Positions 24,441 through 36,400 of a DNA stretch of 36,400 bases are shown in pieces. The position numbers and the translations under genes are program-made. This DNA is from an uncultured Actinomycetes bacterium (GTDB taxonomy: Bacteria; Actinomycetota; Acidimicrobiia; Acidimicrobiales; RAAP-2), in NCBI GenBank assembly GCA_903918025.1, contig CAIXCS010000163.1, positions 1-36,400 of the forward strand, given 5' to 3'. Every line of letters begins with the position of its first letter. Position 1 is the stretch's first letter. The notes under the pieces were generated by a model that ran no database searches, had not been told where the DNA came from, and saw only the letters and a list, made by a program, of their open reading frames with translations.

Positions 24441-25334
24441 TTATGCGGCTTGGATCTGACGCTGAGCGAATCGTAGTTCCCACTCGATCGGCGACATGTT
24501 GTTGATCGAACTGTGCAGACGCAACGTGTTGTAGTGGTTGATCCACGCGATTATGGCTCGCCGAGCTTCGGCTCGCGTCTCGAATCGAAAGCGACTGACC
24601 ATCTCGCGCTTGAGGGTCGACCAGAAACTCTCGGCAACGGCATTGTCGTGGCACGAGCCGGTGCGTCCAACGGACTGGACGATGCCGAATGACTCACAGA
24701 GCTCGCGGTAGTCGTGCGACATGTATTGCGCCCCACGGTCACCGTGAAAGACCATTCCCTTGACTTCACCACCGCGAGCGTTCACCGCCATGGTGAGAGC
24801 GTTCGACACGAGCTCGGTCGGCATTCGTTCGCCCATGTCGTAACCAACGCAGCGACGTGAGCCAATGTCGAGCACGCCGGCGAGGAACAGCCAGCCCTCG
24901 CCGGTGGGGATGTAGGTGATGTCCCCGCAGGTGCGCAGCCCCGGCTCGCCGACGGAGAAGTCACGATTGATGTGGTCCGGCAACGGCGGCGCCGAGACGT
25001 CGGGGATCGTCGTGCGGCACTTCTTGCGACGGGCGTCTTTGGCGTAGAGACCGTTCTCGCGCACGATGCGTTCGACGCGCTTGTGGTTGACGCAGCGCTC
25101 GCGACGCAGTTCGCCCGTCAGACGCGGGGATCCGTAGGTGTCATCGAGGGTGTCGTGAATCGCGATGATCTCGTTGACCAGGTAAGCCTCGTCGAGCTCG
25201 AACGCTGTTGGTCCGGACCCGTGGGTCTCGCGCCAGTCGTAGTAACTCGATGGCGGCACCTCAGCCACTCGACAACACAGTCGAATGGGGAATCCTTCGG
25301 CCTTCCGGGCCCTGATCCAACGGTATTTGGTCAC
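24441..25334 (-). CDS. IS3-family transposase OrfB (DDE catalytic domain)
   Basis: CGDITYIPTGEGWLFLAGVLD, GMVFHGDRGAQYMS, DNAVAESFWSTLKREM: intact D, D, E motifs. GTG at 25334 overlaps the OrfA stop. Confidence 0.95.
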   Translation of the reverse strand: MTKYRWIRARKAEGFPIRLCCRVAEVPPSSYYDWRETHGSGPTAFELDEAYLVNEIIAIHDTLDDTYGSPRLTGELRRERCVNHKRVERIVRENGLYAKDARRKKCRTTIPDVSAPPLPDHINRDFSVGEPGLRTCGDITYIPTGEGWLFLAGVLDIGSRRCVGYDMGERMPTELVSNALTMAVNARGGEVKGMVFHGDRGAQYMSHDYRELCESFGIVQSVGRTGSCHDNAVAESFWSTLKREMVSRFRFETRAEARRAIIAWINHYNTLRLHSSINNMSPIEWELRFAQRQIQAA

Positions 25335-26104: not shown

Positions 26105-26165
26105 GTTGCCTCATGTCAAACCCTCCGCCAAGGGTGATTCGTTGCCTCACGTAAAACCCTCCGCC
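26105..26165. repeat. Two direct repeats, 36-bp period, at the left end of the second IS
   Basis: gttgcctcatgtcaaaccctccgcc (26105-26129) and gttgcctcacgtaaaaccctccgcc (26141-26165). Confidence 0.85.
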
Positions 26166-27367
26166 TAGGAGTAGTTGTTGAAGGACCGATTGATGGCCCT
26201 TGGCGGTGGTCCGGTCTTGGACAATGCCAGGCGCTCGAGCTGCGTGCAGAGCCGGTCGATCTCGCGTTGGATAGTTCCAGGGCTCAAGTTGTTGCGAGCT
26301 CGAGTGAGTGCGGCTTGTTGGGCCGGAGTAAGCACGTGTGCTGCGATCAGACGCTGATAGGGGCTCTGAGCCAGGTCGTGGCGTTTCGTGACCTTTGCAC
26401 CTTGTCGTGAACTCTCAAGCAGCTTTTGCTGCGTCAACAGCAAGTTGGTGTAGCCCTGGTCAATGGTCCATATCCGGTTGAGCAGTGCCAACTCGGCAGC
26501 CGTGTCAAAGCGCAAGTAGCCAACGAGCCCTCTGACGTGGGTCCAGTTCTTTTGCTCCACGTGGCATCCATCATTCTTGTTCCCAGGCCGTGACCTCGTG
26601 AAGGTGACCTTTCGAGCAATGCACCAGTTGAGAAAGTGCACGTTGATGAACTCAGAGCCATTGTCAGAGTCAATGCCAAGAATGGGAAAGGGAAAGGCGG
26701 TGCACGCATGCTCAATGGCTTGGACGACTCGCACTGCCGATTTGTTCGCAACTGAACGGTTGACCGTCCAACCCGTTGCAATATCAGTCATCGTCAAGGT
26801 GAAGCAGAACTCACCAAAAGAGTTCCCTCCTTCGTGACCAACGAGATCAATCTCAACAAAGCCGGGTTTGACGTCGTCCCACTCGGACCAGGTTCGGATT
26901 GGGATTTGCGTCTTGAGCAGCATTCCAGGCTTCGTGTGGCTCCTTCCCCTGAACCCTGCCAGGACTTTGGCACCTTCTAAGCGCCGGTCAATGGTCGCTG
27001 CGCTCATCTTGGTGAGGAGTTCCGCCTCATGATCAGAAAGGTCCAATTCACCGTCTCGACGCAGCAGCGGCACGAGCACGGGAAGCATTGGCGCCAACCT
27101 CTTGCCAGCGGGAGTTCGAGTGGCCCGCCAGCACAGTTCCAATGCGGAGATCACTCGAGAGGAGTACTTCGGCGTTCTTGATGCCCTCACTCGCACAATC
27201 TGGACGTTGCCAGCGCTTCGAAGCCTCGCTCGACAGTGATCCCGGCTCCACCCAGTGAGCTCAACTAAGTGATCCAAGATGGCTGACTTCTGAGACCGGG
27301 TGCCACGCTTGTAACTGATCGCCAACTTCTTCGTGACACTGCGTCGTTCACTCACTGAAAGCTCCAT
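26165..27367 (-). CDS. DDE/integrase-core transposase
   Basis: Intact 400-aa ORF: GFVEIDLVGHEGGNSFGEFCFTLTMTDIATGW, ILGIDSDNGSEFINVHFLNWC, SRPGNKNDGCHVEQKNWTHVRGLVGYLRFDT (D, D, E). Confidence 0.9.
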   Translation of the reverse strand: MELSVSERRSVTKKLAISYKRGTRSQKSAILDHLVELTGWSRDHCRARLRSAGNVQIVRVRASRTPKYSSRVISALELCWRATRTPAGKRLAPMLPVLVPLLRRDGELDLSDHEAELLTKMSAATIDRRLEGAKVLAGFRGRSHTKPGMLLKTQIPIRTWSEWDDVKPGFVEIDLVGHEGGNSFGEFCFTLTMTDIATGWTVNRSVANKSAVRVVQAIEHACTAFPFPILGIDSDNGSEFINVHFLNWCIARKVTFTRSRPGNKNDGCHVEQKNWTHVRGLVGYLRFDTAAELALLNRIWTIDQGYTNLLLTQQKLLESSRQGAKVTKRHDLAQSPYQRLIAAHVLTPAQQAALTRARNNLSPGTIQREIDRLCTQLERLALSKTGPPPRAINRSFNNYS

Positions 27368-27455: not shown

Positions 27456-27532
27456 TCGCTGCTCGATAGCGAGCAACCGCCCCCGGTAGCATGGCCACGT
27501 CCAACCAGGGGCGAGAACTGAGAAGGCAGGAG

Positions 27533-28702
27533 ATGTCCAACCAGGAACGTGGAGTGGACGCGATCGCCGAGTTGGCGACACTTGCCCAAATCTCGAAGGT
27601 CACCATCGTGGCGTGGCGCGACCTTGACGATCCCGAAGCCGGTGGTTCAGAGCTCCACGCACACCGCATTGCCGCGATCTGGGCCAAGGCGGGGATCGAC
27701 GTCGTCATGCGAACATCAATGGTGGCTGGGCAGCCGACGAGCATTGTCCGTGATGGGTACACCGTGGTCCGTCGTGGGGGACGGTATGCCGTCTTCCTCC
27801 AGGTCTTCATGGAAGGGTTGCGTCATCGCGCAAAGCCCGGAGAGGCCCTGATTGAGACGTGGAATGGGATGCCATTCTTCAGTCCTCTTTGGTATCGGGG
27901 TCCACGAATTGTTGTGCTGCATCACGTTCACGGTCCAATGTGGAAGATGTCGCTCTCACGTGGTTTGGCGCGAGTTGGCGAAGCGATCGAAAAGCTTCTT
28001 GCACCACCCATCTATCGATCGAGTGAGATCGTCACCCTTTCTGAGTCTTCGAAGATGGAAATCATTGAACAGATGCACCTGTCTGCGTCTCGGATTACCG
28101 TCGTCCCTCCAGGGATTGAACCTCGCTTTGTGCCTGGTAGCAGGGTCTCGTCAGACCCTCTCGTGGTCGCGGTTGGTCGACTTGTCCCGGTCAAGCAGTT
28201 CGATCTGTTGATCAAGGCACTCGTCGAAGTGAAGAAATCTGTGCCGAAGCTTCAGGCGGTTCTCGTAGGTGAGGGTTACCTTCGTCGAGAGCTCGAGATG
28301 TTGATCATCGAATGCGATGCCGACTCTTGGATCACGCTGCCAGGGCGCCTCGAGGACGATGAGGTGGTTTCGCTCTATCAGCGTGCCACTGTCGTTGCTT
28401 CCGCATCGCTTCGTGAAGGTTGGGGCATGACCCTGACCGAAGCAGCCGCGTGTGGAACGCCGTCAGTAGCCACCGACATTGCCGGGCACCGTGACGCAGT
28501 GGCTGACGGTGTTTCGGGAATCTTGGCGGCCGAAGGTCAACCCTTCATTGCCGCGCTCATTTCGGTCCTCTCAAACAACGAGGAGCGGCAAGAGCTCGCT
28601 GCTGGTGCGCTCAGCGTTGCTGCGGGATTCAACTGGGATCGGACGGCTGAACTGGCCTTCGGAGTCCTTGCATCGGAAGCTCTTCGCCGCGTGGCTCGTT
28701 GA
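27533..28702 (+). CDS. GT4-family glycosyltransferase
   Basis: VTIVAWRDLDDPEAGGSELHAHRIAAIWAKAG, VTLSESSKMEIIEQM, VVPPGIEPRFVPG, SLREGWGMTLTEAAACGTPSVATDIAGHRDAV. ATG 27533 has an upstream GGCAGGAG; an in-frame ATG at 27491 is also possible. Confidence 0.92.
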   Translation: MSNQERGVDAIAELATLAQISKVTIVAWRDLDDPEAGGSELHAHRIAAIWAKAGIDVVMRTSMVAGQPTSIVRDGYTVVRRGGRYAVFLQVFMEGLRHRAKPGEALIETWNGMPFFSPLWYRGPRIVVLHHVHGPMWKMSLSRGLARVGEAIEKLLAPPIYRSSEIVTLSESSKMEIIEQMHLSASRITVVPPGIEPRFVPGSRVSSDPLVVAVGRLVPVKQFDLLIKALVEVKKSVPKLQAVLVGEGYLRRELEMLIIECDADSWITLPGRLEDDEVVSLYQRATVVASASLREGWGMTLTEAAACGTPSVATDIAGHRDAVADGVSGILAAEGQPFIAALISVLSNNEERQELAAGALSVAAGFNWDRTAELAFGVLASEALRRVAR

Positions 28703-31700
28703 CATCAACGTCCTTGCGGAGAACGAGAAGAAGATTCCACGTGACGAACTCACGCAGGATCGGCACCTTGATGATCCATGCGGCCCAATCGGGGTAATAG
28801 CGAGGAAACGCCCAAACAAGACTTACGTCTTCGCGGGCCCGGACGAGCTTGAGGGCATCGGCCACGGTGACCTTGAACAGCGAAGTCCCGAAGAGGTTTC
28901 CAGGCGGGCGACCGTTCTTCTTTTCGTAGCGACGAGCTGCGTACTTGCCACCGAACAGGTGCCAGGGGGAAGTTTCATGACCACCCCATGGAGAACTCCA
29001 GACAGTGAACGAGCAGTAGATCGTTCCGTTCGGCTTGGTGATCCGCAGAGCCTCATCGAAGAAGGCGCTTGGGTCGGGAACGTGTTCGAGGACATTTGAT
29101 GAGAAGGCGACATCGATGGAATTGTCGGCGAAGGGGAGACGCATTCCGTCGCCTGCAATGGTGCGTTGTTGGTGGAGTCGTCCCTGCTTGACCGCATAGT
29201 CATGCCGCTCTTCAAAACTTGCAAATGGTTGATCGACAGGACGGACTTCGACCGGACGCGCCTCAGGCTCTACAAGAAGAACTCGGGCACCACGAGCTTC
29301 AAAGGCTTCGCTGAAGTACCCAGGACCTCCGCCAACGTCAACGATTGTTCGATTGAAGAGCGGCGTGAATACGGCTAATTGATTAGCGGTGTCCTCTGCC
29401 AAGGTCCGATAGAAGCGATCAGGGTCGGTTTGTTCAACTCTGAAGGCTTGGAACAACGCAATCGAACGTCGAATACCCGTTGGAATTGTTGTCGGTCGCT
29501 CTTCTACTTCGGCGTACTCGACACGCGGACCAGACTCTTCGTCGGGAGGAGTCTCCGATGCCTTTCGAGCTGCAAGGCCAGCAGCGGCCACCATGCCTAC
29601 TGCGGGAACTGCAGATGAAGTCGCCTCTGGAAGGAATGCGGTCTCTCCAAGGGCGAGAGAACTGTCTCTGGCAAGTTTTGTACTCAATCGTGGCGTCACG
29701 CCGGCGGCCTCCTCTGACTTCGTCAGAGGGTCCTCAGTGGACTCCTCTTCGGAGCCAGGAAGAGCGAGCCCATCACCATTGGTTGGCGAATCTGACTCGT
29801 CGTCTGAAGTCGACCAGTCATCGTCCGGATTCGAACGTTCTGTTGACCGACTTGCCGAGCGTTCAAGCGTCGCATCGACGAGCAAGATGGCGAGGCTGGC
29901 CCAAATGGCTCCATTGGCAAGGCCAAAATGCTGAGGCCAGAGGATATTCCATGGCCATTTGTGGGCTTGAAGAACCATCGATCCACCAGCGAGGAGAAGC
30001 CCTGCCGCTGCAGCGATGGCTGCCAGCAGACGGCCAACCTTCAACTTGAGAAGGAGTAGCGCGAGGACGCCAAGCGGAAGAATCGCGAACCACGAAGTGC
30101 AGAGCGTCGCGACCAGCACGACGATGACAGTGGTAACGATTGAGGGGCGTCCAATGACCTCGAGCCCAATCGAACGCGAGAACAGCTCGGGTGGGGTAGC
30201 AACTTGGTCATCGTCACCGACGGTGAACGTTCGTCGCCGACGTCGAGGAAGGATCGCAAGACCAAGCACCAGCACAAAGCCGAGCATCGAGGCGTACAGG
30301 GCCCAGTTCACGACTGATTGAGGGGTCCACGTCAGTTGAACCGAGTACTTCTTCCCAAGGGTGAAGGCAGGCAGATCCCATCCATTGGCAAATCCATCGA
30401 TCAATCGAGGAGCGTAGGGAACAGCCTTGCCATTGATCGAAAGATGCCAGCCAGGACTCAAGCTCTGCCCGAGCACCAAGGTGCCAGTGGCACCAGTGCC
30501 GACAAAGGTTCCCTTCAGTGCTGTCCGCGATTGCGAGGTGATGACCACATGGGTCGCCGGCGTTGAAGCAGGAAGTTGGAACTGCGAATTTGCCTGAGGA
30601 AGTGGTCCACCGCCACTCTGAGAGCCGAAGCCGGCGAGGTCCACCGTCACACCAATGGTGGGCGATTGCACGCTCTCGATCTGGTTGAGACCCTTGCCAA
30701 AAGACGCCGAAGGAGTGCATCCGGTGAATTTGAGACCCTTGCCGCCAATGAGGTCGGCTACAGATCCCGTCGCGGTCACCGGGACCGGTGTTCCGTTGAC
30801 GAAGAGCAAGTCAGAGCGACAGGGAACCGTGATGGTCTCTGGAGTTAACGGAGGTACGACCCCTGGAAGTCCAAGTTCTGCGATTCCAATTGGCAGCGAT
30901 GACGGCCCGAACTCAGAGAAGTCGAAGACCTTTGGTGCGGTCTTCTTCTTGATAGTCAACGTGAAGGTTTTGCCTGTCAATGTTGTTGGAAGGTCGACCG
31001 TCACTGCAGAGGTCGATCCGTTCTCATTTGAAGCTGGAGGAGGAAGTCCCGGCATCGGGACCGTGACGGTCTGCAGACCGTTGCTCAGTGAAATGACGGA
31101 GGGGAGTCCGTGATGGCCATCATTAATAATGTCCATATTGAGGTGATCGACCGAAATGGACTTCGAAAGGGTGACCGTCATCGACTGGCCGTTCTTTGTC
31201 GAAACATCCGGCACCCAAGCCGTCTCTGCCTTCCCGTCTATTGCAGACCATGACCCCGCGTTGACGTTTGAAGCGAGCCTGCTCGTCGAGTCCGTTCCAA
31301 TAACCGTCGGAGATGAACCGGCTGTACTTCCAGTTCTTCCAAGAAGAGCGTTGATGGTGGGATCCGTTGCATCTCTGCTGGCGCGGATAATGCCAGCAAC
31401 GGAGAACTCGCGAGCATTCGGGAGGTACACCATCCTCGAGAGTCCATGACGAGGGAGGACTAGTCGGTTCATCACGAGAACCATCGGATGGTCAATCGCA
31501 GCGGCTCCGACCTTATTGGTCAAGTCGATTGGCAATCGGAGGCTCTCGTGAATAGGCGTCAGGCCGGTCACGGCTATTTCGGCGAAGCCCACAGCGTTTG
31601 CTGTTGAGAAGTCCTTTAGTCCGGGCTCATTCGTGGCATCGATGGTGATCGTGAGGTGGCGAAACGACTTCATCGGGAAGGAAATGGTTTGGCCGACAGA

Positions 31701-34205
31701 TGCCTGACCCCGGACGGCAATTGACGACCGATTGAGCGTGACCTTCTTCGTGAAGCGATCAAGATGAATCGTGATCTTGGTTACATGCCGGTGCCCACTG
31801 TCCTCTACCGATGGTTGCAGCAGCGTGAGATGGTCAGCGGAAACTTTGTGGGAGATCGATAAGAGGATCGACTGTTTAGTTGCAGGTTGGTAAGCACCCT
31901 CGATCCAAGAGGTGGTCGGATCGCCGTCAAAAGCACTGGAGGGTTGATTCTCAGGAGTGTTGGTGATGGGGTTGCCATAGCTGGTCGCCGTCATCTGGGT
32001 GATGCCCGGATAGATCGCGACCGTTTGCAGGTCTGAAGAGCGATTGGTGAAGAGGGGAAGCGACTGTTGGGCAGGGTTCGGGACGAGCGGCACTTCAGTG
32101 GCCGTCATTGGATAGCCAAAGGTGCTGTCGAGTGTGCCCCAGGAGTCAAGTGACCGAACATTCGAATCAGTGAGGATCAGTGCTGCACCATTTCGAAGGG
32201 CAGATGAGAGCGCTGGAGACTTGGCAAGGACGGAACCCGAGTAGGTGATTGACGTGTCGGTTGGAACGAGGCCGAGAGCGGCCATCTGAACCAAGCCTTG
32301 TCCATCTCCAGCAACGAGCATGGGGTTCGAAGAACCCTCAACTCGGACCAATTTACGCGGGTGAGGGACGCCATAGACAAGGAGTGGAGCTGGATAAGGA
32401 GACCCTGGCGCAACGGCGAGGTCATCGGGACCGAAGACCTTCCGTTTGATTGCTGCAACATCTGCAGGGTTCCCAAACGACTTTGGATCTTCAAGACCCG
32501 TAGGTGTCGGGAGGAACTTGTTCAGGTACAAAATTTGAGGCTGATTGAGCCCGTATCGGTTCGTTGGCAAATTCGACTGCAGGAGCAAATCCCCAGAACC
32601 CATCAGTGAGGCGATGGGGGCCATGGACTCCGCCGGAATCGTTCCATTCTGAAGGTCTTCGTCGAGTGCCCGAAGAAGATTGACCGACCCTGGCTCTCCT
32701 TGGATAACCGCTTGACGGCCGACATAGGGGCGCTCGAGCAATGCGGGCCAAATCGGATCTGCCGTGGTTCCGAACGTGTAATAGGCAAAATCTTCTCCAG
32801 GAACGCCGAGAACGCTTGAACCACGATGATGCTGGTTGAGGTACGCCGCTGCATTCGTCACATACTTCGGCAGGGTCTGCGAGTGGCGAGCCATGTTGGT
32901 CGCGACAATTGAACCGTCAAAGAGGGGCGAGAGGTTGAGGGATGCGGCAATGACGGTCGCTCCGAGAAGAAGGAGCCCAAGTTGGCGATTTCGAACTCGA
33001 ACGGAGGAAACGAAAGCTCCGAGCAGCAAGGCGAGACCAAGGACCGCAATCGGAAGTACCCGATTCGACGATCGCATCGCCAAGCCAATGGTCGACGACT
33101 CGGCCGTCGTCTTCAGCGCCGAACCAAAAGGAGTTGGCTTGTTGAAGGGATACGCCGCGACTGCCAAGACCACACCGAGCACGACGAGCCAAGCGGCGAA
33201 GGCGCGGTATCGCCATTTGACGAAGAATCCAGCGAGAAGGCAGGCAGATGGGAGAGCAATGGAGAGCCCAATCGCCCAATAGGAAGAAACATAGGGTGCC
33301 GCAGCGGCTGTCCATGGCTCCGACGAATCTCTTCCGTAGAAGAACCAATAGCCAAGCCCTCTGAAGACTTCTGACGAAAGTGACGTCGAGGTGACCGTTG
33401 GGATGGTCTCGGTGTACTTCAGGATATTGATCCCGTACGTACCTTCGGCCCAAAGGCCCGCAATCCACCAAAGTGAGACAGCGGTGGTGAGGAGCCCAAG
33501 CTTTCCAACGACGCGAAGGGCGGTTCGCGCAGTGGTCTCATTCGTATTGAAGACGGCGTAGAGGAGGTAGAGCGCTGGCGCGAGGCCGACAAAGAGAATG
33601 GAGGTCGCGTTGACCCCACCGACGAAGGCAACACAGAGGGCGAAGAGTGCGGGATAGCGCCAACCTCCTCGGCGCACGCTCAGGATCGTGAAGGAGACCA
33701 TCCATCCAAGTGCCGCCCACGGCATGGTGATGGCAGAGATGCGGGTGATGTAGTCAATGACGAAGGGGGTGAACATGTAGATGAAGGCAGCCGCCAGAGC
33801 ACCACTTCTTCGAAATTGAAGAAGCCGACACAGAAAATACGCACCGGCCCCTGCGGCGAAGAAGAGGGTTCCCATCCAAATCCGCTGTGCAATCCAGTCG
33901 GGAACCCCAAGCTCACTCATGGTCCAGTAGTAAGGCCCCATTGGAAACAAGTAACCAATGTTCTGATGGGTGACCGTCCCGAGACCAACATCAGGGTTCC
34001 ACATTGACCATGCGCTTGACATGAGTTTTGATGGATTCAGATACAGATAGGCCTTGGTATCTGCCGACACCCAGCCCGGTCTCGCCAGCAGAGACGGGAC
34101 GTAGGCGAAGAGCGCCAGGACGAGGTAGGGGACCGATGTCCGAGGCAAGCGGCGACGCCGCTTGGCAGAAAGGGACGCTTGTCTATCGGTCTCTTGGGTG
34201 GTCAT
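28629..34205 (-). CDS. AftD-like alpha-(1->3)-arabinofuranosyltransferase (DUF3367-type) fused to a C-terminal SAM-dependent methyltransferase
   Basis: Single uninterrupted 1858-aa ORF. N-terminus SVPYLVLALFAYVPSLLARPGWVSADTKAYLYLNPSKLMSSAWSMWNPDVGLGTVTHQNIGYLFPMGPYYW is GT-C AftD-like. C-terminus FRVEQTDPDRFYRTLAEDTANQ...IVDVGGGPGYFSEAFEARGARVLLVEPE...LPFADNSIDVAFSSNVLEHVPDP is class I methyltransferase-like. Confidence 0.88.
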   Translation of the reverse strand: MTTQETDRQASLSAKRRRRLPRTSVPYLVLALFAYVPSLLARPGWVSADTKAYLYLNPSKLMSSAWSMWNPDVGLGTVTHQNIGYLFPMGPYYWTMSELGVPDWIAQRIWMGTLFFAAGAGAYFLCRLLQFRRSGALAAAFIYMFTPFVIDYITRISAITMPWAALGWMVSFTILSVRRGGWRYPALFALCVAFVGGVNATSILFVGLAPALYLLYAVFNTNETTARTALRVVGKLGLLTTAVSLWWIAGLWAEGTYGINILKYTETIPTVTSTSLSSEVFRGLGYWFFYGRDSSEPWTAAAAPYVSSYWAIGLSIALPSACLLAGFFVKWRYRAFAAWLVVLGVVLAVAAYPFNKPTPFGSALKTTAESSTIGLAMRSSNRVLPIAVLGLALLLGAFVSSVRVRNRQLGLLLLGATVIAASLNLSPLFDGSIVATNMARHSQTLPKYVTNAAAYLNQHHRGSSVLGVPGEDFAYYTFGTTADPIWPALLERPYVGRQAVIQGEPGSVNLLRALDEDLQNGTIPAESMAPIASLMGSGDLLLQSNLPTNRYGLNQPQILYLNKFLPTPTGLEDPKSFGNPADVAAIKRKVFGPDDLAVAPGSPYPAPLLVYGVPHPRKLVRVEGSSNPMLVAGDGQGLVQMAALGLVPTDTSITYSGSVLAKSPALSSALRNGAALILTDSNVRSLDSWGTLDSTFGYPMTATEVPLVPNPAQQSLPLFTNRSSDLQTVAIYPGITQMTATSYGNPITNTPENQPSSAFDGDPTTSWIEGAYQPATKQSILLSISHKVSADHLTLLQPSVEDSGHRHVTKITIHLDRFTKKVTLNRSSIAVRGQASVGQTISFPMKSFRHLTITIDATNEPGLKDFSTANAVGFAEIAVTGLTPIHESLRLPIDLTNKVGAAAIDHPMVLVMNRLVLPRHGLSRMVYLPNAREFSVAGIIRASRDATDPTINALLGRTGSTAGSSPTVIGTDSTSRLASNVNAGSWSAIDGKAETAWVPDVSTKNGQSMTVTLSKSISVDHLNMDIINDGHHGLPSVISLSNGLQTVTVPMPGLPPPASNENGSTSAVTVDLPTTLTGKTFTLTIKKKTAPKVFDFSEFGPSSLPIGIAELGLPGVVPPLTPETITVPCRSDLLFVNGTPVPVTATGSVADLIGGKGLKFTGCTPSASFGKGLNQIESVQSPTIGVTVDLAGFGSQSGGGPLPQANSQFQLPASTPATHVVITSQSRTALKGTFVGTGATGTLVLGQSLSPGWHLSINGKAVPYAPRLIDGFANGWDLPAFTLGKKYSVQLTWTPQSVVNWALYASMLGFVLVLGLAILPRRRRRTFTVGDDDQVATPPELFSRSIGLEVIGRPSIVTTVIVVLVATLCTSWFAILPLGVLALLLLKLKVGRLLAAIAAAAGLLLAGGSMVLQAHKWPWNILWPQHFGLANGAIWASLAILLVDATLERSASRSTERSNPDDDWSTSDDESDSPTNGDGLALPGSEEESTEDPLTKSEEAAGVTPRLSTKLARDSSLALGETAFLPEATSSAVPAVGMVAAAGLAARKASETPPDEESGPRVEYAEVEERPTTIPTGIRRSIALFQAFRVEQTDPDRFYRTLAEDTANQLAVFTPLFNRTIVDVGGGPGYFSEAFEARGARVLLVEPEARPVEVRPVDQPFASFEERHDYAVKQGRLHQQRTIAGDGMRLPFADNSIDVAFSSNVLEHVPDPSAFFDEALRITKPNGTIYCSFTVWSSPWGGHETSPWHLFGGKYAARRYEKKNGRPPGNLFGTSLFKVTVADALKLVRAREDVSLVWAFPRYYPDWAAWIIKVPILREFVTWNLLLVLRKDVDVNEPRGEELPMQGLRRPVQPSDPS

Positions 34206-34278: not shown

Positions 34279-34905
34279 ATGTTTGCAGTTGGACTCAGTG
34301 GTGGAATTGGTTCAGGGAAGACAACCGTCGCCGATCTCTTGGTCGAATATGGCGCCGTTCTCATCGATGCAGACCAGGTGGCGCGTGACATCGTGGAGCC
34401 CGGAACGCCAGTTCTTGGAGCGTTGGTGGAGCGCTTTGGCGCAGCCATCCTCGATCCCGAGGGCCGTCTAGACCGTGCCTCGCTCGCCGCAGTAACCTTT
34501 GGTGATGCCGAAGCGTTGAAGTCGTTGAATGCACTGACCCATCCAGCCATTGGCCTTGCAATGGTTGAGCGCCGAGCCGCACTGGTGGAAGACGACGTTG
34601 TGGTGGTCTTTGCCGTGCCACTGCTCAGAGAAGAACACAAGGCGCTATTGCACTTTGACGTTGTTGTTGTCGTCGATTGCCCAACTGATCTGGCCCTTCA
34701 GCGTTTGGTTGAGGTACGTGGGATGGATCCAGTTGACGCCGAGCGCAGAATCGCCGCTCAAATTTCTCGCGAGGAGCGGACCAAACTCGCCGATCGAGTG
34801 TTGGACAACGGTGGCGATCTCCAAGCATTGATCGATCTGACCGCATCGCTTTGGACATGGATTGGCGAACAGCGCAGTGCGCGTGATCGGGACCTACGTG
34901 GCTGA
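34279..34905 (+). CDS. coaE: Dephospho-CoA kinase
   Basis: [70 protein letters not shown] 34279 preceded by GGGAGG. Confidence 0.95.
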
Positions 34906-36400
34906 GTTTGAGGTCGTATCGGTATTTGAGCCGGCCGGAGATCAACCAACAGCGATCCAGACCCTCGTCGATGCCATTGGATCAGGTGAGCGATATGTAG
35001 CGCTCGAAGGAATCACCGGTTCTGGCAAGACGGCAACGATTGCGTGGACCATTGCAGAACTGCAACGACCGACACTCATCATCGAGCCGAACAAGTCGCT
35101 CGCGGCGCAACTCTCTTCTGAATTGCGCGATCTCTTTCCGAACAATCGCGTTGAATTCTTTGTTTCGTATTACGACTACTACCAACCTGAGGCCTACCTA
35201 CCGACAACCGACACCTACATCGAGAAGGACTCCTCGATTAACGATGAGATCGATCGCCTTCGACACGCAGCGACCTCGTCGCTGTTGACGCGTCGAGACG
35301 TGATTGTTGTTGCCTCGGTGTCTTGCATTTACGGACTTGGCTCACCCTCGGAGTACGCCGACCGGATGCTTGGGCTGATTGTTGGGGAGGACTACGACCA
35401 AGCAATCTTGCTGCGTCGGTTGGTTGACCTTCAATACGACCGCAATGACGTCAACCTCATCCGCGGCACGTTCAGACGGAAAGGTGACACGGTCGAGATC
35501 CATCCTGCATTTGAAGAGCGAGCACTGCGGCTTGAGTTCTTCGGCGACACGCTTGAGCGGATCTCTACCTTTGATGCAATGACCGGCGAAGTTGGACCAC
35601 CGCTCGACGACGCGGTGCTCTTCGCCGCCACGCACTACGCAACCGGTGAAGAGACCATGCGTCGGGCGATTTTGACTATTGAGAACGAACTTCGAGAGCG
35701 ACTTCACGTTCTCACGACTGAAGGAAAGCTCCTCGAAGCGCAGCGGCTTCGGTCAAGAACTGAGTACGACCTCGAAATGCTTCAAGAAACCGGATCGTGC
35801 TCTGGAGTTGAGAACTACAGCCGTCACCTCGATGGTCGGAGCGCAGGCGAGCCTCCGTATACGTTGCTCGACTACTTTCCGGAAGATTTTCTCATCGTGA
35901 TCGATGAGAGCCATGTAGCGGTGCCACAAATACATGGGCAATACGCTGGTGACCGATCCCGCAAGATGAACCTGGTCGAGCATGGATTTCGACTTCCGAG
36001 TGCGTTGGATAATCGGCCGCTGACCTTCGACGAGTTCATGGCCCGAGCCCCTCAGGTGGTGTTCGTCTCAGCTACTCCAGGGCCGTATGAGACCGAGATC
36101 TCGTCAACCAAGGCTCAACAGGTCATTCGACCTACCGGCTTGCTCGATCCTCCGGTGACCGTGTTGCCGACGAAGGGTCAGGTGGACGACCTTATGGAAC
36201 GTGTTGACGCAACGATCAGCGTGGGAGATCGGGCGCTCGTCACCACGTTGACGAAGAAGATGGCCGAGGATCTCACTGACTACCTCCTTGACCGTGGGAT
36301 CAAGGTTCGCTACTTGCACTCCGATATTGACACCGTGACCCGAATTGAAGTCCTTCGTCAATTGCGGCTTGGTGACATTGACGTGGTTGTCGGCATCAAC
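34898..36400 (+). CDS. uvrB: UvrABC system protein B, 3'-truncated by window edge
   Basis: Not in the ORF track because it has no stop in the window. [24 protein letters not shown]...[104 protein letters not shown] 34898 chosen; 34877 and 34883 are also in-frame GTGs. Confidence 0.96.

Follow-up and report, generated by a model that had tools for sequence, protein, structure and literature searches.

An AftD-like glycosyltransferase and a methyltransferase share one reading frame

The window analyzed here is a stretch of 36,400 nucleotides from the genome of an uncultured member of the Acidimicrobiales. On its minus strand, positions 28629..34205 form a single open frame of 1858 amino acids with an ATG start. 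The original prediction, made from the letters of the DNA, described one uninterrupted frame carrying an AftD-type protein and a methyltransferase (MT), and a Pfam search indeed finds both. The GT-C_AftD domain occupies amino acids 37 to 703 (32097..34097, minus strand, as are all parts of this gene) and matches PF11847 with an E value of 1.5e-79 and a score of 271 bits, relative to a cut-off of 26. It is followed by a CBM_AftD carbohydrate-binding module at amino acids 752 to 881 (31563..31952; PF24607, E value 8.4e-8, 32.4 bits, cut-off 27), and thus the protein has both the GT-C_AftD domain and the CBM typical of AftD. A weak F5/8 type C-like (discoidin) module is present at amino acids 983 to 1033 (31107..31259; PF00754, 2e-5), where the score of 25.1 bits is below the cut-off of 28.2; the same fold family scores above its cut-off in orthologues from a second genus, termed g2.

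Amino acids 32 to 825 can be aligned by phmmer to the solved structure of Mycobacterium abscessus AftD (6w98/6wbx), and this alignment takes in the strongly conserved first extracytoplasmic loop. AftD (Rv0236c) is a GT-C α-arabinofuranosyltransferase, and the window protein shares with it the GT-C_AftD and CBM_AftD domains, the C-terminal helices, and a first loop of the form S-x-DTK ... GYLFPxG ... GVPxWxxQRxW.

Downstream of these modules, hydropathy and a low-confidence AlphaFold model of the C-terminal 574 amino acids (mean pLDDT 58.6, usable for a helix count only) predict five membrane helices at about amino acids 1295 to 1456 (29838..30323), rather than the single transmembrane segment originally proposed. 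This pattern agrees with the 11+5 arrangement of membrane helices given for AftD in PMC8698533. The loops that are predicted to face the cytoplasm are basic, in a positive-inside pattern, and on the basis of hydropathy and this low-confidence model the C-terminus, including the MT, would reside in the cytoplasm.

The acidic, low-complexity linker that was also proposed is present at amino acids 1457 to 1575 (29481..29837), where the alignment, dN/dS values, and pLDDT values below 50 across most of its length are consistent with a disordered and fast-evolving segment. Within it, a short Ala/Gly/Val-rich patch that recurs in several species is predicted to form a small helix. The remaining domain, at amino acids 1576 to 1835 (28701..29480), is a class I S-adenosylmethionine (SAM) MT of the MtrP type. 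Methyltransf_11 (PF08241) matches amino acids 1622 to 1731 with an E value of 1.2e-16. The SAM motif I region VDVGGGPGYFS (amino acids 1620 to 1630, 29316..29348) is identified by its conserved glycines, and the family motif VWSSPWGGHETSPWH (amino acids 1735 to 1749, 28959..29003) by residue conservation.

Two genes on the plus strand flank the fusion. A convergent GT4 glycosyltransferase gene (27491..28702; PF00534, 3.6e-33) overlaps the 3′ end of the fusion gene by 74 nt, and a partial uvrB gene (34862..36400; NCBIfam UvrB) marks the other side. Both arrangements are conserved, with the GT4 gene being the convergent neighbour of the AftD-like gene in most relatives and uvrB adjoining it in most of the family. 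Shortly ahead of the GT4 gene, at 24441-25334 and 26165-27367, lie two transposase-type genes with an integrase core (rve), the second of which is IS481-like.

The fusion is present in nine species

The fusion of an AftD-type protein with an MT is real. A survey of AftD homologues, as the original prediction had proposed, uncovered the full-length fusion in eight other species, or nine species counting that of the window. These include three congeners (G234, G223, and G022; 84-59% identity), one member of another genus (G213), and four members of genus g2 (G110, G193, G268, and G287). The congeners, like the other relatives from public collections, are represented by separate metagenome-assembled genomes (MAGs), which carry the labels Acidimicrobiaceae bacterium or uncultured actinobacterium. 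Three more species have the gene on broken contigs. In G241 the same gene is interrupted by contig ends whose sequences overlap exactly over 149 bp, and in the fragments from G214 and G226 the AftD part is still joined to the MT.

The linker retains only 23-46% identity across species and yet has no stop codon in frame 0, whereas the other frames contain up to eight stops in g1 species. Its dN/dS is 0.39-0.50. The lowest value for any part of the protein, 0.023, is that of the MT domain (window versus G234). Between the window and its congeners, dS is saturated, or exceeds 1 over the main domains. An internal start in the linker that could yield a free MT was considered and rejected, because the one GTG codon with an upstream purine-rich stretch is found only in the window and is not conserved in relatives.

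None of the papers searched describes an AftD-MT fusion in Acidimicrobiia. The observation is real and partly explained by known families; the component families are known, and the domain architecture that combines them is new.

The AftD half and the GT4 neighbour are paralogues of the mycobacterial proteins

Quick, midpoint-rooted trees were computed for the AftD and GT4 proteins. The AftD tree is deeply divided into two groups, one with mycobacterial AftD and most of the MT-adjacent copies of other families, and the other with the uvrB-linked copies, including the window fusion. By this tree, the AftD half is a paralogue rather than an orthologue of Rv0236c, contrary to the proposed match. 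We refer to it as AftD-like because of its placement in a separate, uvrB-linked clade. It is the product of the only PF11847 gene in the host genome and differs from AftD also in its C-terminal MT and in residing in a genome that has no match to Emb. Likewise, the window GT4 protein falls in a clade distinct from the Rv0225-type GT4 proteins, and hence the suggested resemblance to Rv0225 is that of a paralogue. Across the order, AftD-type and GT4 genes each form two old paralogue groups, uvrB-linked and MT-linked; in the window genome, the sole AftD-type gene is uvrB-linked and has the MT attached.

The methyltransferase domain is of the MtrP (Rv0224c) type

The identity of the C-terminal domain (METHYLTRANSFERASE) was settled by profile, locus, and reciprocal matches to the Rv0224c type. 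Among 396 genomes sampled from the phylum, 37 have a single strong match to an MT profile (in two pieces in G411). The mycobacterial Rv0224c-type gene was recognized by its locus in the closed genome G657, where the gene order is MT, GT4, MmpA, PorA/LmcA-type, acyltransferase (TmaT-type), AMP-ligase, phosphotriesterase, and then AftD. The MmpA gene in this series scores 656 bits with NF053599 (cut-off 210). The descriptions of the Rv0224c-Rv0236c locus of Corynebacterineae in PMC8698533 and PMC7775120 give the same order, and because of this locus order we infer that G657 is a mycobacterium. As originally proposed, the window MT resembles Rv0224c: the window domain and the G657 protein are each other's best match by a wide margin (209.5 bits for the window domain versus G657, with the next match at 44.7; 160+58 bits in the opposite direction, with the next at 25.4). 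They are 45-50% identical and have the family motif and the SAM motif in common.

The MT domain is modeled with a pLDDT of 93 as a class I MT fold, and in the window this fold is accompanied by an intact SAM motif (VDVGGGPGYF), which is not the case in g2. A fold search for a hint of substrate led to nothing more specific than class I MTs of the general small-molecule kind, with TM scores near 0.5. Like MtrP (NCgl2764/Rv0224c), the window MT has a GT4 neighbour. However, mycobacterial MtrP is free-standing near TmaT, LmcA, and MmpA, whereas the window MT forms part of an AftD-like GT-C protein, its genome has no match to MmpA, and the window flanks are GT4 and uvrB rather than a locus with MmpA, TmaT, and LmcA.

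Rv0224c/MtrP is conserved and predicted to be essential in M. tuberculosis, and we know of no substrate for it. The original prediction called the protein poorly characterized, which holds for its precise role, described as undefined in the accounts of MtrP in PMC8698533 and PMC10171966. Nevertheless, the protein has been studied: the same accounts report that the Corynebacterium glutamicum orthologue is required for the synthesis of acetyl-trehalose-corynomycolate (AcTMCM). MtrP is regarded as a putative methyltransferase that is necessary for trehalose-mycolate transport as well.

The fusion probably arose once, with an apparent later split and a possible loss

In the MT tree, every AftD-fused MT, together with the MTs of the split pair G074/G278, forms one clade with support of 100/98. 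By this tree the AftD-MT fusion arose once, with G203 and G221 (genus g139) as the exception that leaves either a loss of the MT or a second fusion. In the AftD tree, these two genomes lie inside the fused clade and have an AftD-like gene without any MT, and either event might explain them. Nearest outside the fused clade are G124 and G047, where AftD and MT are encoded by separate neighbouring genes (with a gap of 25 bp, or with an overlap), and next are G251 and G255, where the MT is several kb away.

Separate proteins, which the original prediction regarded as the sign of an artefact if present in close relatives, are found only in G074 and G278 and in the distant side-by-side genomes. The G074/G278 split looks like a secondary fission because both genomes fall within the fused clade. 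The AftD-like frame of G074 stops at TAG, and an in-frame ATG start codon occurs one codon later. The split sites in the fused frame map to L066:11430-11490 and around position 10849 of L152 (G074/G278). The position of g2 within the fused clade is tentative, an AU test on its relationship as sister to G213/G226 having given p 0.163.

The MT domain of genus g2 is a pseudo-methyltransferase still under selection

The loci of genus g2, fused or recently split (L061, L065, L067, L068, L066, and L152), have a destroyed SAM motif and an intact WGGxE-SPWH motif. All six members have lost the glycines at 1625, 1627, and 1629 as well as E1707 and H1708, residues that 95-100% of the 63 homologues examined have in common. 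The same six members retain W1736, G1741, G1742, and H1749, which are present in 100% of the 63 homologues, and they also keep E1744 and P1747. The g2 domains have dN/dS values of 0.06-0.13, indicative of purifying selection. By these sequence criteria, the fused domain of g2 is a pseudo-METHYLTRANSFERASE under purifying selection, and selection on it has therefore persisted beyond the loss of the SAM site, at least for a time. Thus, catalysis would not be required in g2, and a purely enzymatic reading in which the MT methylates arabinan cannot cover the whole clade. With this SAM-less domain, g2 offers a natural experiment on the importance of methylation as such.

GT4, MT, and AftD-type genes form a recurrent module

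Genes for GT4, MT, and AftD-type proteins are adjacent in several families and constitute a recurrent module across Actinomycetota. AftD-type genes are present in 35 of the 37 MT-bearing genomes, compared with 60 of 396 overall; these counts ignore shared ancestry, and only counts are given because relatedness inflates any p-value.

In addition, the same MT family is fused to GT4 in six genomes with complete genes, and their distribution on the tree corresponds to four or more changes of label. In G211 the MT forms the C-terminus of a 645-amino-acid protein encoded near an AftD-type gene (L077:5624-7561). The others, each adjoining an AftD-type gene or in its vicinity, are at L155:3666-5546 (G043), L161:6942-8927 (G088), L166:387-2411 (G065), L125:9165-11147 (G002), and L141:8232-10121 (G212). 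A further GT4-MT gene, in G231, is cut at a contig end. These proteins of related Acidimicrobiia resemble the window arrangement in that the same MT family is found beside an AftD-type gene, but the MT is joined to the cytosolic GT4 rather than to the GT-C protein.

The recurrent linkage and the two kinds of fusion (MT-AftD and GT4-MT) indicate that the GT4, MT, and AftD-like proteins share one pathway. Hence the proposal that the MT and AftD belong to one arabinan or envelope pathway gains from gene linkage well beyond the genus, whereas arabinan methylation as the role of the MT throughout the clade does not stand.

The host encodes a probable arabinose donor pathway

Host gene families were searched one at a time. 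Three adjacent genes for polyprenyl-phospho-arabinose, ubiA-dprE1-dprE2, are present in the host (G000:C161:639-3713; L185), a lineage without an Emb match. Their products are a UbiA-type phosphoribosyltransferase (337.7 bits, cut-off 207), DprE1 (547.7 bits, cut-off 500), and a DprE2-like reductase (215 bits, below the cut-off of 250). The decaprenyl-phospho-arabinose (DPA) donor pathway of AftD proteins is thereby represented, with the DprE2-like member below its cut-off, and because of these genes the arabinose donor is probably available in the host. By extension, Acidimicrobiia may have an arabinan-like glycan. Searches for Emb gave no matches in 21 genomes (positive control, C. glutamicum), and MmpA (NF053599) had no match in the host genome and none above the cut-off in the 21 genomes searched. 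MmpA is reported in PMC8698533 to be a distant homologue of AftD; we found no signal with the AftD profile or Pfam, and therefore this homology is not used as evidence. Three-component pentofuranose systems (PMC11127046) likewise combine lipid-phosphate pentofuranose genes with a GT-C protein bearing a CBM, although the window GT-C protein carries an MT as well.

A proposed relay from GT4 through the methyltransferase to the AftD-like protein

The sequence shows that the window encodes an AftD-like GT-C protein with a floppy linker and an MtrP-family MT, beside a GT4 gene and in a genome with the genes for making the arabinose donor. The explanation we favour, with somewhat better than even confidence, is a genuine two-enzyme fusion that acts in the building of a cell-envelope glycan through a relay from GT4 to the MT to the AftD-like part. 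Both termini would be cytoplasmic, with the GT-C site and the carbohydrate-binding modules outside; cytoplasmic termini would place the MT on the inner membrane face, where SAM is available. GT4 would make a lipid-linked sugar inside, and the MT would methylate this sugar or a different glycolipid that the GT-C protein has bound. Once the product had been flipped, a pentofuranose would be added on the outside by the AftD-like part, with polyprenyl-phospho-arabinose as the donor. The fusion would thereby hold the MT close to the protein by which its product is used. Most likely, then, what the cytosolic MT modifies is the product of GT4 or a lipid-linked sugar that is then handled by AftD on the other side.

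The presence of the fusion in nine species, the strong conservation of the MT, the recurrent GT4-MT-AftD adjacency, the GT4-MT fusions, the co-occurrence of MT and AftD-type genes, the host DPA pathway, the five C-terminal helices with their basic loops, and the binding of ACP to AftD on its cytoplasmic side (PMC12041299) argue for this relay. Against it stand the loss of the SAM site in g2, the AftD-like genes without an MT in g139, the lack of detectable similarity between MmpA and the AftD profile, and the finding in PMC8698533 that LM/LAM maturation is unchanged on loss of MtrP from C. glutamicum. The MT-AftD fusion, the GT4-MT fusions, and the near-obligate co-occurrence point to a GT4-MT-GT-C pathway, here without MmpA. 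The fusion also sheds light on a mycobacterial protein that is probably essential but has so far lacked an explanation, and it makes a testable prediction as to which proteins MtrP touches.

The main alternative, unlikely but to be taken seriously, is that the MT is a docking or regulatory module whose catalysis is retained in some lineages and is dispensable. The six g2 domains, which keep W1736, GG1741-1742, E1744, P1747, and H1749 under purifying selection without SAM-site residues, speak for this alternative, and the cytoplasmic face of AftD is known to bind a soluble partner, ACP (PMC12041299). However, the genus of the window has kept an intact SAM motif, and no other domain of its protein is as tightly constrained as the MT, as would be expected of an active enzyme, and the long g2 stem branch (1.05) may reflect relaxation on the way to a loss like that in g139. 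A more general version, which we hold to be about as unlikely, is that MtrP-family MTs are partner domains that dock on the cytoplasmic face of AftD-type proteins and control GT-C enzymes, with methylation being secondary. If so, mycobacterial MtrP would be a component of a GT4/GT-C assembly and not a mycolate-modifying enzyme.

It is decidedly improbable that the MT has a lipid or a trehalose-lipid-like molecule with no relation to arabinan as its substrate, as has been inferred for MtrP in Corynebacterium, and that the fusion only co-localizes or co-regulates the two activities. The phenotype data in PMC8698533, wherein MtrP, MmpA, and TmaT mutants share a trehalose-lipid defect, with trehalose corynomycolates affected by MtrP loss and LM/LAM spared, suit such a substrate. 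Nevertheless, the absence of MmpA matches from the host, and of any above the cut-off among the 21 relatives, argues against it, as does the fact that the partners found in common throughout the phylum are genes of the GT4 and AftD types.

Even less credible is a chance fusion without functional meaning that drift has preserved in one clade. A single origin, the split in G074/G278, and the possible loss in G203/G221 are compatible with drift, but the same MT is elsewhere fused to the neighbouring GT4 and adjoins AftD-type genes in distant families, and this recurrent linkage disfavours and partly refutes the chance reading. Finally, an assembly, sequencing, or annotation artefact in which two genes are read as one, for which the side-by-side split genes of G074, G278, G124, and G047 might be cited, is exceedingly improbable; the uninterrupted frame with its fast-evolving linker in independent MAGs of nine species and the G241 break, which is a contig end with overlap, led us to reject an assembly error. 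Separately, two other apparently giant MT frames were traced to an antisense overlap (G609) and to the GT4-MT fusion of G002.
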